A stretch of 64,000 bases of DNA from Coniochaeta sp. PMI_546 (lineage: Eukaryota; Ascomycota; Sordariomycetes; Coniochaetales; Coniochaetaceae), in contig MU271145.1 of NCBI GenBank assembly GCA_021432605.1, positions 2,728,001 through 2,792,000 of the forward strand, in the 5' to 3' direction. The translations under genes were made by a program, and so were the position numbers. The notes beneath the pieces are model-generated. The model was not told the origin of the DNA and made no database searches. It saw only the letters and a list, made by a program, of their open reading frames with translations. Within the stretch, counting starts at the first letter, position 1. Each line of letters starts with the position of its first letter. Positions 11,903 to 58,496 of this stretch are shown piece by piece.

Positions 11903-14356
11903 CTAATGTGATATCTCCTTGATCTTTCCGGCGGGAATTCGCAACCTGATGCCCTCGACGCCACTATCCTCACCCGCTAGCACAGACCTCTCGCTCCCCT
12001 CATGATGCTCATGCTCCCCATCCGTACTGTCATCCCCTGTCTCCGTCGCGCTCCCCTCCACCCCTTGACCTCGAAGGAGATTCCTCAAGTCGTCCTCGCT
12101 GATGATAGTCTCGATACTGCCCCTCCGCACGAACGGCCTCGTCTCGCGTCTGCCCTGCTCCACCAGCCTCTCCACCTTCAGCCGGTTCGCGACGAACTTC
12201 AGCTTCGGGAAGGCGCTCTGCTGCCCCTCGTGTATCATCCGCGCCAGTCGCGCATTGTCCGGGTCGTCCAGGATGTGGATGAAGTCCGACAGCACGCTGC
12301 GGGGCCAAATGGTGATGGTGCCGACGAACTGCTGCAGCCAGATCTGGCTCCAGTCCTGGCCCAAGGGTCGGGGAAGCAGCTCTAGATGCCGCAGGACCTT
12401 GAGCCACTTGTTCAGGTCGAGCTTGAGGTACTGCTCCGTCGCAGAGCCTAGGTACCCGCCGCGCCAGCCGCGGCCCCGGCGGTGCGTCACCGGTGAACCC
12501 ACGCTACCCCGACTAGAGAAGAAGAACAGGTTGATGTGCGGGTTGACCTGGCTCACGATGGTAAAGTTGACGTTGAAATGCATGTTTAATGCCTTGATTG
12601 GGATGTCGGTCCTCAAACTGCCGTCCTTCCACTTGTGACCGAAGGAATACGGCACCAGCTGACCCGTGCGCGTCTTCATCATGAGCACGACGGGATTCAG
12701 TATGCCCGGCACGGCCGCAGACGCCAGCACGGCGGACCAGATGACGCAGTCGGGACTGGTCAGGTAGTTGCACAGTATGGTGGGCGAGTGCGGATCGGCG
12801 GGCACACACGAGACGTTGAGTATGCGCCCCGTCCGCTCGTAGGCTTCGCGGAAGGTCATGGACCCCCGCGTCCACCAGCTGCATTGCTTGGCCCAGTCGA
12901 CCGAGTCGAAGCGAGCGCCCGTCTTCCACCAGCGTCGGAACCAGACTGTGATGGGCTCCCGACAGGCTGTTATTTTGTGCGAGAGGGCGGGCACGAGGAG
13001 CTCCTTCAGCTCGTCGTTGGTGCGGGTAGCCACCAGACCGGCTACCAGGGCGCCGCCGCTAGTGCCTGTGATGACGTCTGGTAGGAGATTTGCTTCGAGG
13101 AGTGCCTTGACCACGCCGAAGTGGTAGTAGGCGAAGGATGCTCCGCCGGACAGGCAGAGGGCCGTGCGACCGTAGTTTGCGTGTATGCTCTTGAACAGGG
13201 ACCGCTTCTCGTCCTTGGTGAGCTGCTTCGTGTTCAGCAGAAACTTGAGGCTTTTCTCAACTGCAAGCGAATATTATCAGCCATCTGTATATCATTCCCG
13301 AGAACACTTGAAAGACTTACCTTCATCCACAAAGTTCTGCACCAGGTTCTTCGTCCCGTAGTATGTCTGGCTGTACAACCTCGGATTTTCGACCCCGACG
13401 AAGTTATTCTTCACGCACGCCTCAATCAGGGCCTTCAGGTCTTCCACATCCTTGCGATCTCTGTCCTCGCCCGCACCATTCGTCACACCGAGCGTTTGCT
13501 CTACCCTCTCCGCCTTGGCCCTACACTTCCTCATCTGCTCCCACACCCGCCGCACCGTCACGCTGTCGTAATACGCAAACTCGTTCTCCTCCTTCCACCC
13601 TTCATTCCCGAGGAACTCATCCATCCGTTTCGCAGCAGCGACCCACTCCTCGTAGTTACTCGTAGCCCTCATCGCTCGGCGCAGCTTATCCCTCGTGCCC
13701 CTCCACGCGATAAAGTGCTCGTAGAGCCAGATGTACAGCCGAGTAGCCATATACGCCACTCCCAACCCCAGTATCCAGGTCCCCACGATCAGCAGAAAGG
13801 GCCATTTGAGCAAGCCGTATAGATACCCCTCCCTCGTCTCGTCTTTACTCCGCGTCCCCACCACAGCCTCGACCGTCTTCCTCGCCCTCCCGCTCCGCCG
13901 CCCCCTCTTCCTACCCTTCCCCTTCACCTTCTCATGCACGGGCGCCCAGTCGTTCGCCGCCGTGATGAACAAATTCCCACCCCCGCTGGACCTGTGCTGC
14001 GGGCCCTGAGGCCTCGGCTGGTTCGGCGCAGTCACGTCCGCCGCCGCCGCGGCGGCCTGCGCGGCCACGGTCTGCGGATCGAGGTCTTCCTCGCCTCCAT
14101 GACTGGAGGCAGGGGCTTGGGAGTTGCGTTTCGTGACGTCGAAGGAGGAGCGGCTGTGCAGACCAGTCGGACTGCCGGGGGAGGCGCCGTCTTCGGTCGC
14201 GGTCTGGATGGGGTCCGGGGCGGAGAGGGCTTGGATGAAGGCCTCGAGGTGTTCGGGGGGGAGGAAGTTGGTGTCGACGTCGGGGAGGCGGGAGTAGTCG
14301 AAGGCTTCCGGTGGGAAGCCGTAGGTCTTTGAGGGGATGTCTATTGGTTTGGACAT
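11903..14356 (-). CDS. Patatin-like triacylglycerol lipase (Tgl3/Tgl4/Tgl5 group, DUF3336-patatin)
   Basis: This is a lipid-droplet-type lipase of 797 residues that would hydrolyse triacylglycerol, possibly with acyltransferase side activity as in yeast Tgl3-5. Exons on the minus strand are 14356-13321 and 13260-11903, joined over a 60-nt intron (GTAAGT...GCAG). The N-terminal 170 residues are Ser/Pro/Gln-rich. A hydrophobic hairpin near residues 183-212 could anchor the protein on a droplet or the ER. A DUF3336-like helical part follows. The patatin core has the oxyanion motif LSGGASFAYYHFG across the region after the intron, the nucleophile elbow GTSGG (Ser about 413) and a DGS motif (Asp about 558) completing the Ser-Asp dyad. 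The C-terminal tail is acidic. It runs in the same direction as SAR1. Confidence 0.93.
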
Positions 14357-25858: not shown

Positions 25859-28324
25859 ATGACATCTGTGTACGGTGATGAATACCTCCCGCCAACTCCA
25901 TACCTTTCTCGCCGACAGACGCCCGTTGTACTCGATGAGCTTGATGCTGACCGTGTCCCGGGAGGAACAGTCGCCGCTCGTGTTGTGCGACTGCAGCAAC
26001 TAGCTAGTCAAGATCCAAATACTACACCTCCGCCATTCTTGACACGAGACCGTGATGGTGAGAGCTCTGGCTGGGGCCGTCGTATCGAAGGAGCAGTCCG
26101 CCTGGTTCAGCCAGCATCTCACATAAACTCGATCGACGTGAATCACAGTATTCCAAGGAGAGCTGTGTCGAGCTATCTTCGACGACCGAAAGCTCTTTCG
26201 GCCATACCCGAAGTCAAGACTGCCTCATCCGTCCACTATAGACCTTCGGCGGCTGCGCATCAACCGCGATCAAGGATGGATTCCGACTCATTGCCTGAGT
26301 CACCACCATCGACTGCCAGCAGCCGCCGTGAAGATGCACGGCAGATACTCCAAGAACACCGGATCTCATTACCTCCCGGCTAGTTGTCCGATGATGAGGC
26401 CGAGTCCGACCTTATTGGTGATGGGAAACAGGGTATACGCACAGGCTGGAGACTATGCCACGTCTGCTTGGCTAAAGTTCGGCCACAGAACGCTTGCCCT
26501 GCTTGTGGACATGCCCTTTGTCCGACGTGTACTTGCAAACCGCCAACTTATGCTCCCCCCGAAAGTCGCGCCAACGCAACAACGGGGATCGCGCATGGGG
26601 AAGTTCGTCCTGCTTCTGTAGCTCCCTCACGTACCCTCAAACGCCAGCCTTCCAGGCTTGACATGAATCCGTTTGTGATCGCAGATCGACTCACTGCAGC
26701 GGAGGCTCGGCAGCGCGTTGTCAGTCCAAACATTACCGAACCAAGGACTTATTCACGCATGTCAACATGTGTTCCGACGCACCAGGATCTATGGCTCGAT
26801 TTGGAACAACCAGTTCCCAACAAGACGGGGCACAGGGCCATTGCAGATAGGACTCCAAATTGGTCTTCTGGCAGACAAAATCGTAAGGATACCGGTCGGC
26901 AAAACCCTGCACAAAACAGGCTCCTTAGGAGAAGATCGACTTTCGACCGACGTGGTGACTTTCGGACGCCGGACACTTTTTCAAGGCCAGAGATCGGTCC
27001 AGCGGTGCGGTCGAGGCAAGGTGAAGACATGGCCATGAATAAGGCGTACCAGCATGCAGGGGAACTTCCTGGCGCACAACAGATACGGAATTACATGGCT
27101 GTAGAGCTGGAGCTGAATCCCGACGATCATCGTATCATACAACATGAAGGGAACCAGGAGACGTTGGCCAAGCCTTCCGAGCGCTCCACGCCATTCAGAA
27201 GACCCAGCACGAAGCAGTCATCGCCAGGACTAGACGCACTCAAAGCACCTGATCAGTTGACTTTGAAGCAGCCGGAGAGGATGGGCAGCGGAGCACTCAA
27301 CACCGAGGAGGGCCGGACTGTATATGAGAGCCGCACACTCAGTCCGCTGATGGCGTGCCGACAAGAGCAGAGTGGACTACTCAATAGCACAAATGACAGG
27401 CTGACTAAAGCTAGTACGAGAAGTTCTCCATACCTCGCACAAGCGAATCGGAAGGACGAGGCACTTCAAGATTATGCACCCGATCACAGGTCTGATACCG
27501 CCAGTATGGATCAAGGCTCTCTCCTCCAACAGTCTTGTTCCCGGCCTTACGAAAGATACACTCCGAAACAGACATCGCAGATCGACTACCCTGCGGGCTT
27601 GAGGCACTATATCCCCACAGGCGCAGGGTTGTTGAAGAAGATACAGTCGAGTTCGGCACTCATGCGGAAAGCTCCTCCCTTCGCCAATCTCCACAGCAGA
27701 CACCGATCTCCTAATCTTCTGGACGACTGTGGCTACTGTGAGCTGGAGGAAGTCCAGGGTATTATGCCCGCCTCTCATGTTGTCATTCCTGACGTACCAC
27801 CAAGCAGCAACGAGTCTCCCCGTGAGTCATACCACACAGCCGAGTCCTCCACGAGTTCGAGAATTCTCCGGCGAATACGCGAGAGCAAAGAAAATCTGCG
27901 CAGCTCCGAAACGACAAGCGCGCAGAGTTCTGAGGCTGCGACGGCTCGGCCTTCAGTGGCACCATCGAGTTCAGGGACGGCCGTACCCTTGGGAAACATA
28001 GCCGGCATGTCTCCCCATCCCGACGTCCAGCAGGCCGTGCCCGTCCGCCATTCTGACCATGACTGTGAGTAGAAAGCGCAGTACCGGGACCTCGCGAGCG
28101 AGGTACGGGATCTGAAGGCCGCGATAGCCACGAAGCAGGATGCGGTTGAGAGTAAGGTTGGTGCCAGCAGCGATCACGAGAGTGAGGCACTCAATGCCGG
28201 GATCCAGACTGACGGCACGCTAGTTCTTATCAGGGGTATTACTATCACGCTGCACATGAAAGACGAGCAGGATGATTTGGTGATGAGGGCTGATCTTTCT
28301 GGGGAAGGGTTGGAGGCAGAATGA
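25859..28324 (+). CDS. Zinc-finger/coiled-coil protein with two in-frame TAG codons (candidate edited or pseudogene)
   Basis: One reading frame stays open from ATG 25859 to TGA 28322-28324, except for TAG at 26381-26383 and TAG at 28070-28072: 174, 562 and 83 sense codons, 821 if both TAGs are read. No family name is recognised. The first part is Ser/Pro-rich and ends REDARQILQEHRISLPPG before the TAG. Directly after it come LSDDEAESD and a Cys-rich cluster, CHVC-x8-CPAC-x4-CPTC, that would bind zinc. A long Ser/Arg/Gln-rich middle follows. The third part is a heptad-like helix (KAQYRDLASEVRDLKAAI), then a hydrophobic block LVLIRGITITLHM. Coding character is continuous across both TAGs. Each would be Trp if the middle A read as G. 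An in-frame 63-nt intron (GTGAGT at 28065, TAG ending 28127) could remove the second TAG but would also delete the helix. Readings: mRNA editing, read-through, recent inactivation or base error. Confidence 0.7.
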
Positions 28325-56680: not shown

Positions 56681-58496
56681 ATGCATCACCAAATCCTAGG
56701 AACGAGTGACCAGGAGAGTCATACGGCTCAGGACGATAATAACACATATGGGCATGATGGTTCATGGGTCGACATGCACGGTTTCCACAACCACCACCAG
56801 ACCACAATGCCCGAGTACAACGGGAACAGCTTTAGCTTCATGCCTTCAATAAGCCACGGCCTACCATCCGAATCTCTGAACAGGATGCCGCCTCCACCGC
56901 CTCCACATTCCATGGCCCAAGCTCAGACGACACTGCCACAGCTCCCTCCGCAGCTTCCCATGCTCGTGATGCCCTCGCACGCGACATGGCCAAGCATGTT
57001 GACGAACCCGAACAGCTACAGCTCACACTCGGCGCCGCCGATGTCCATACCTCCCATACAGGTGACACCTCGACTCCAGGCCAACCTGAAGACAAAGCTT
57101 CCGGCCCTGCATACTCAGCCGGTTCCACGGAAGACCCTGACGGACGACGACCGGAAGAGGATGTGCCAATATGCCGAGGATCATCCACATGCCAAACAGA
57201 CCGACATCGGTGCACGATTCGGGGTTGAGCGAAGGTTGGTTGATGTTGACGGTGACCCCACGTGCTGTGTTTGGTCGAGCACCTTTCTAACCTGATATTA
57301 GTACCGTGTCCAAAGTGCTGCGTAATAAAGAGAAGTATCTGTATCCAGAGCAAAAGGATAGCGCGGCCAGCTCTCCGGTGAAGCGGAAAACGAAGGGAGG
57401 GGTCGATATCGAGAGGGCATTGACCAACTATGTGCGGAACGCACAGAAGTCCGGCGTTACAGTAACAGACGCCGACATCAAGGAGAAGGCTCGTCTGTTT
57501 TCGGCGACGATGGGTAAGTCGGACGACGGACTGATCAAGGCCAGCAGCTCGAGCTGGCTGGAGAAGTTCAAGCAGAAGAATGGAATCGGCCACGGGAGGC
57601 TGATGAGGAGAGCTTCGGAGACGAACATACCGGACAGCATTCGCGGCTCGCCATCTCTGAGCGCGTCGCAACCGTCGAGTGCCATCTCTCCCAACTCCGC
57701 GTCTGGACATCTCTCGCCATCGCCCCTCTCCGCAAACCAGAGCGAGGACGGCAAGGAGAACATGAACCACTTTATGGACTTCAACACGGAGCCTGGAGCG
57801 TACAAACACTCTAATTCCCAGAGCACGACGTCTCTGTCCAGTGCCTTCACCGACGGCGGGGGATCATCCTTCTCAGGAAGCGCATTGAGCCCGTCCGCCA
57901 CACCGTTCACCTTCTCCCCAGACTCGAACGTTGGTGCGTTTTTGGACCACAGCAGGCAACTTCCGGGCGGTGTTGGCTCCAACTTCCAGCGGCCTCGAAG
58001 CCAGACCTTCCCGACTCTGGACCTAGAATACATGAACCAGCAGCAGAACACGGAACCCCTGACGCCAAGGTACCACGTCTCCTCCACCGCTCCGTCCTCG
58101 GCACTCGAGTCACCAGCAAACGAGATCTCGCAGCCGACATACGGGATGGACCAGGCCATCTCCTCGCCTCAGCTCCGCCACAGCAGCAGCAACAACAGCC
58201 TGACAGGCCGCTCGACGGCCACCAGCGCGGTAGCCTCGTCTCCAAACTCGCCGACGCAGGAAGACGCGCGCAGGGCAGCAGACACGCTCCTGTCGTTCAT
58301 CTCGCACGTTGGCGGCTTCGTCGACCAGAGCGAGTACATGACGGTCGTGAGGCTGACGGAGAAGCTCCGCCTGCACATGAGCCAGCTGGGCAAGGGCACG
58401 GGACAGCAGGGGATGGGAGGGCTGGACCGGATTCCGGAGCAGGACAGCGAGATGAGCAACGCTTCGCCTGATGCGTTGGGGATCAAGGCAGAGTAA
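56681..58496 (+). CDS. CENP-B-type HTH DNA-binding protein
   Basis: The product is 582 residues, from exons 56681-57234 and 57302-58496 with a 67-nt intron (GTTGGT...TTAG). The N-terminal 125 residues are His/Pro/Ser/Met-rich. The first helix-turn-helix, residues about 145-195, reads KTLTDDDRKRMCQYAEDHP, then QTDIGARFGVERSTVSKVL, with the intron inside the recognition-helix region; this is the Psq/CENP-B N domain. A second HTH of Tc5/CENP-B type follows at about 217-280 (IERALTNYVRNAQKSG, SSSWLEKFKQKNGI). The rest is Ser/Asn/Gln/Pro-rich and ends in a helical region (DTLLSFISHVGGFVDQSEYMTVVRLTEKLR). The DDE nuclease of pogo-type transposases is absent, so this is a domesticated-type regulator or centromere/ARS-binding protein, not a transposase. 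Its targets are unknown. Confidence 0.88.

Follow-up and report, generated by a model that had tools for sequence, protein, structure and literature searches.

Two in-frame UAG codons in a conserved gene of Coniochaeta sp. PMI_546, a candidate target of stop-correcting A-to-I mRNA editing

In the 64-kb stretch of Coniochaeta sp. PMI_546 DNA analysed here (the window), an ATG at position 25859 opens a frame of 821 codons (25859-28321, + strand) with three in-frame stops, including the terminal one. The first stop (TAG1, 26381-26383, +) occupies codon 175 and the second (TAG2, 28070-28072, +) codon 738, at a distance of 563 codons, and the terminal TGA (28322-28324, +) is codon 822; no other lesion was found across the 821 codons, and both internal stops proved to be TAG, as a preliminary description of the locus had stated. 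The frame is thereby divided into an open N part of 174 codons (25859-26380, +), corresponding to the product expected if TAG1 terminates translation, an open middle part of 562 codons (26384-28069, +), and a C-terminal part of 83 codons (28073-28321, +) that contains a conserved module at about 28196-28297 and is followed by the TGA. The candidate editing sites are A26382 within TAG1 and A28071 within TAG2. A Cys-rich cluster, CHVC..CPACGH..CPTCTC (26456-26536, +), perhaps zinc-binding, follows TAG1, and a heptad-like stretch lies 3' of TAG2; the coding character initially noticed beyond both stops is borne out by these features and by the conservation of the downstream parts in other proteins. 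The first 93 codons after TAG1 (codons 176-268), which include the Cys cluster, hold zero in-frame ATG, so the Cys-rich region has no in-frame AUG from which it could be translated independently and does not resemble a gene in its own right. The downstream neighbour is a THI6-like gene (TMP-TENI and HK domains), and an ATP synthase delta gene, recognized by eye only, lies upstream. Sequence searches against Pfam, NCBIfam and PDB assigned no family to the gene, every match being below cut-off or no better than chance, and neither the three pieces nor the Cys-rich segment contained a zinc finger above the Pfam cut-off. A paralogue search of its own genome with the related protein P0003 returned a single match, the gene itself.

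A split frame is by itself not rare in this DNA: with open stretches of at least 100 and 80 codons as the threshold, there are 23 places in the 64 kb where one stop separates two open stretches (9 TAG, 8 TGA and 6 TAA), without marked TAG excess (9/23). Stop trinucleotides in the window are 54% TGA, 26% TAG and 20% TAA, and the probability that both stops would be TAG by chance alone is about 0.07. A codon-usage score favoured the gene's frame in the C-terminal part and, to a slight degree, in the middle part, and favoured it neither in the N part nor in the first 93 codons after TAG1, the test being uninformative overall. Further single-TAG splits in the window are located at 13082 (+, 164/245 codons), 13820 (+, 245/169) and 62733 (-, 342/195), and these may represent chance, introns or true gene ends. 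At 57306-58496 (+), continuing to about 59370, a frame with a Tc5-type transposase DNA-binding domain is ended by TAA and followed by 291 more open codons in the same frame, perhaps a decayed transposon.

The position of the first stop is shared by every relative found. A protein search with the 174-residue N part, whose length gate of about 96-304 residues favours short proteins, yielded relatives ending at exactly the residue before TAG1 in 9/9 cases; these relatives are known from proteins only, with the stop position read from the protein ends. Eight of them are 55-71% identical to the window's N part and 52-67% identical to one another, and the ninth, at 99% identity, probably belongs to this species or to a very closely related one; their tree has a length of 2.9 changes per site. 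Seven are exactly 174 residues in length, one has 167, and one, from Coniochaeta sp. 2T2.1, reaches 248 owing to a gene model with a start farther upstream. The truncated 174-residue product that had been proposed for termination at TAG1 is matched by nine proteins with the same end. Scans for the relatives' DNA gave 19 pattern matches in viral contigs and 25 in genome contigs, with 0 confirmed in either set.

The sequence beyond the stops is conserved as well. The whole-frame search (gate of about 451-1437 residues, scoring only the 8000 candidates that shared most words) identified three middle-part relatives besides the window's own protein, namely P0003, P0004 and P0005; none of the whole-frame matches spans both the N part and the middle part, lengths of 305-450 residues lying between the two gates. 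In Coniochaeta sp. 2T2.1, a member of the class Sordariomycetes and the only named relative of the gene, the N part and the middle part are separate gene models on contigs that are both 2673199 long, and such splitting is one of three annotation mishandlings described for genes of this kind (PMC11169179). Two of the three relatives that cover TAG2 (P0003 and P0004) have their last residue immediately before it, and the third (P0005, from Coniochaeta sp. 2T2.1) has Gln at that site and continues into the conserved C-terminus, with 50/83 residues of the C-terminal part identical and a BLASTP alignment including the TAG2 site of 57/96 identities. The Cys-rich segment shares 46/76 identities with P0003; the P0005 model does not include the cluster (8/32 aligned positions identical at 193-230), being marked partial with a start that lies after it. 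Alignable sequence is present after both stops (P0003, P0005), in agreement with what the preliminary description expected of an edited gene, and on its question of whether orthologues carry Trp or a conserved TAG, the proteins show a stop of unspecified codon in 9/9 at site 1, and at site 2 a stop in 2/3 and Gln in 1/3. Judging from identity with Coniochaeta sp. 2T2.1, which reaches 61% in the N part versus 45/160 in the middle part (positions 401-560), the N part appears better conserved than the middle part, as though the short product had an importance of its own.

With regard to RNA context, A26382 and A28071 were both placed in predicted hairpin loops at 6/6 flank sizes, with sampled probabilities of 0.89-1.0. 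The hairpin predicted by folding at site 1 (26378-26388, +) is small, with a 3-bp stem and the 5-nt loop UAGUU, whereas that at site 2 (28062-28082, +) has a 6-bp stem and a 9-nt loop. Among 600 control TAGs sampled from the 1031 in the window, 31-59% also lay in hairpin loops depending on flank size (31% for flanks of 30 nt on either side), compared with 62.4% published for edited sites (PMC4817773), and the joint chance of both sites being in loops is about 0.1. Compared with shuffled sequences, the site-1 hairpin, whose loop has only one closing pair at the two smallest flank sizes, is no more stable (z 0.08 at 31 nt and -0.30 at 61 nt), and that at site 2 surpasses them in stability at 31 nt (z -2.0) but not at 61 nt (z 0.21). 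The loop placement predicted for both adenosines thus lends editing mild backing. The favoured U at -1 is found at both sites, as it is given by any UAG; site 1 has U at +3, where A or G is favoured at edited sites (PMC11156358).

We also looked for the editing machinery in the same genome (33.5 Mb, 24 contigs), in which a PF00383 profile search gave 9 matches. One of these, on contig C5 (C5:726424-726864), is a Tad2-like deaminase whose exon pair carries HAE and PCVMC, as Tad2 does. Another (C6:2180521-2180805) carries PCVMC and has HSV in place of HxE, an E-to-V change that marks Tad3 (PMC12754623). DUF726, the Ame1 domain, gave 5 matches in three genes, one of which, at C11:79431-80548, carries MV at the position occupied by KN in the C7 paralogue, within an ungapped stretch of the alignment; according to PMC11087585, MV500-501 of Ame1 is essential for editing and KN is ancestral. 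The C11 pair lies 30 and 29 residues before the serine of GYSLG, versus 31 and 30 if that serine corresponds to S531 of Fusarium Ame1, and, being one residue off by this distance, its position assignment rests on the paralogue alignment. By these sequence hallmarks, the genome would encode Tad2, Tad3 and an editing-type Ame1.

As an internal control, a kinase at C2:1760874-1761062 reads YDARCD-UAG-UGG-SIGVILYE, a stretch of kinase subdomain IX. The PUK1 stops lie in the ninth subdomain, and UAGUGG is found in N. crassa NCU03242 (stk-21), which is edited in perithecia (PMC4817773). On the strength of the UAG-UGG match, the kinase is probably the PUK1/stk-21 orthologue with a conserved candidate editing site, and the A of its UAG is unpaired in the predicted fold at 5/5 flank sizes. 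Kinase matches in the genome number 141, of which 21 contain an internal stop; among the 8 of these 21 that were inspected, one (C2:1760874) has a TAG within the match at the PUK1 site and the other 7 resemble introns or intron ends by eye. No internal stop was present in 4/4 DNA methyltransferase (RID-type) matches, which therefore offered no second control. A narrow literature search for Coniochaeta and RNA editing turned up a classification review but no paper on editing.

A conserved stop with conserved coding sequence behind it requires a way past the stop, and among editing, readthrough and splicing, editing best fits a member of the Sordariomycetes. Taken together, stop-correcting A-to-I editing at both sites is in our judgement the probable explanation. 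A single gene would encode an 821-residue protein with the Cys-rich cluster and the conserved C-terminal module; on unedited mRNA, translation would end at UAG1 and give the conserved 174-residue product, and the Tad2-Tad3-Ame1 complex would deaminate the A in each UAG, probably in fruiting bodies, creating sense codons and allowing synthesis of the long protein, which may function in sexual development. If only site 1 were edited, the product would have 737 residues. We infer that editing occurs, the stage at which it does so, and that UAG is the stop in the relatives. An otherwise continuous coding frame with an internal UAG, a criterion of stop-correcting edited Sordariomycetes genes, is what the locus displays, and the two-site editing put forward in the preliminary description agrees with the conserved stop positions, the conserved downstream protein, the editing proteins recognized by sequence and the PUK1-type stop; Trp would be the restored residue in its proposal, and one relative has Gln at site 2. 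This Gln, which also fits readthrough, and the overlap of site 2 with the GTGAGT donor count against editing, as do the U at +3 of site 1, the loop placement shared by 31-59% of the sampled TAGs, the uninformative codon-usage score, the one-residue offset of the MV pair and the negative literature search for Coniochaeta.

Programmed ribosomal readthrough at either UAG or at both, which would yield small amounts of longer protein and is a live rival at either site, accounts for a conserved stop followed by conserved coding as well as editing does, and UAG readthrough can insert Gln, the residue present at site 2 in Coniochaeta sp. 2T2.1. The fungal context described in PMC4207609, however, is UGA CU(A), with reduced readthrough at UAG, while the bases here are UAG UUG at one stop and UAG AAA at the other; moreover, two successive events would be expected to leave very little full-length protein, and we regard readthrough as unlikely. 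Removal of the stops from some transcripts through a retained or alternative intron is less likely still, and is live at site 2 only. As the preliminary description had pointed out, TAG2 does lie inside a 63-nt in-frame GT-AG stretch (28065-28127, +) with the donor GTGAGT, a conserved donor could account for where P0003 and P0004 end, because such frame calls ignore introns, and in FgBUD14 a single stop is subject to both editing and alternative splicing (PMC11156358). Nevertheless, this would-be intron is conserved as protein with P0005 (9/21 residues identical at 739-759) and is kept in the 2T2.1 model. At site 1, removing the stretch before the stop would delete the most conserved N-part residues, and all in-frame intron candidates over TAG1 have poor donors, which upholds the earlier assessment of an intron there as weak.

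Two separate genes, that is, a 174-residue protein with a normal stop and a downstream protein from its own start, would explain why the N part and its stop are conserved in 9/9 relatives, as an ordinary C-terminus would be, and the downstream protein could have a non-AUG or spliced start; but the absence of ATG from codons 176-268 with their conserved Cys cluster, and a downstream frame that begins right after the stop in the same phase, make this highly improbable. The in-frame stops themselves are what would suggest a pseudogene, an RIP remnant or base errors, to which we attach a negligible probability: relatives at 45-71% identity have the same stop positions, which refutes a pseudogene or base errors at site 1 and all but does so at site 2, the 821 codons carry no further lesion, and RIP left no signature (TA/AT 0.61 vs 0.66 for the window). 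Reassignment of UAG to sense was rejected, as the isochorismatase, DUF2457 and PXA-domain frames in the window end in TAG.

Compared with known systems, the gene shares with PUK1/stk-21 and the 69 PUK1-like genes of F. graminearum (PMC4817773) a UAG in a continuous frame with U before the A, the A in a predicted hairpin loop and, as in many of them, the lack of a known domain. It differs from PUK1 in that its two sites are 563 codons apart instead of tandem, and in that its editing is predicted from sequence; furthermore, PUK1 stops vary between species (PMC4817773), whereas stop 1 is kept in 9/9 relatives found here. The UAG-corrected CHE1/ZAO genes (PMC11169179, PMC12754623) likewise have the stop at the same place in related species, are split by annotation and encode zinc-type residues after the stop, but they carry C2H2 fingers, and ZAO adjoins an OLD deaminase gene, neither of which holds for this gene. 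FgBUD14 (PMC11156358) resembles site 2 in having a stop within a possible intron, where editing and splicing could both act. Fungal UGA CUA readthrough genes (PMC4207609) share a longer protein past the stop and differ in the stop and its following bases, UGA-CU(A) being found at neither site here.

There is debate over whether fungal stop-correcting editing is an adaptation or a tolerated accident, and in a published comparison individual editing sites were not conserved between distant species (PMC5381528). A gene with a stop at the same codon in 9/9 relatives, lost in none of the Coniochaeta-related lineages sampled, is a good case in which to test the adaptive question. Tentatively, and with somewhat less than even confidence, we propose that the two stops constitute an old, selected two-gate switch, in which short and long products would both be functional and two distant edits would set a length of 174, 737 or 821 residues; if so, selection would have maintained stop correction across deep divergence, in contrast to the turnover usual for such sites.

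An OLD-ZAO antiviral module was considered for the locus and rejected, as none of the 5 PF14441 matches in the genome falls in the window, the nearest on the same contig (C3:15298) being about 2.7 Mb off, and no C2H2 zinc finger over the Pfam cut-off follows the stop. Elsewhere in the genome, 2/5 OLD loci (OTT_1508-like deaminase; C15 near 25749 and C3 near 15298) resemble OLD-ZAO pairs, with a C2H2-type motif frame 2-3 kb away, and at both of them the frame before the finger exon holds, by eye, an in-frame TGA where published ZAO genes have UAG.
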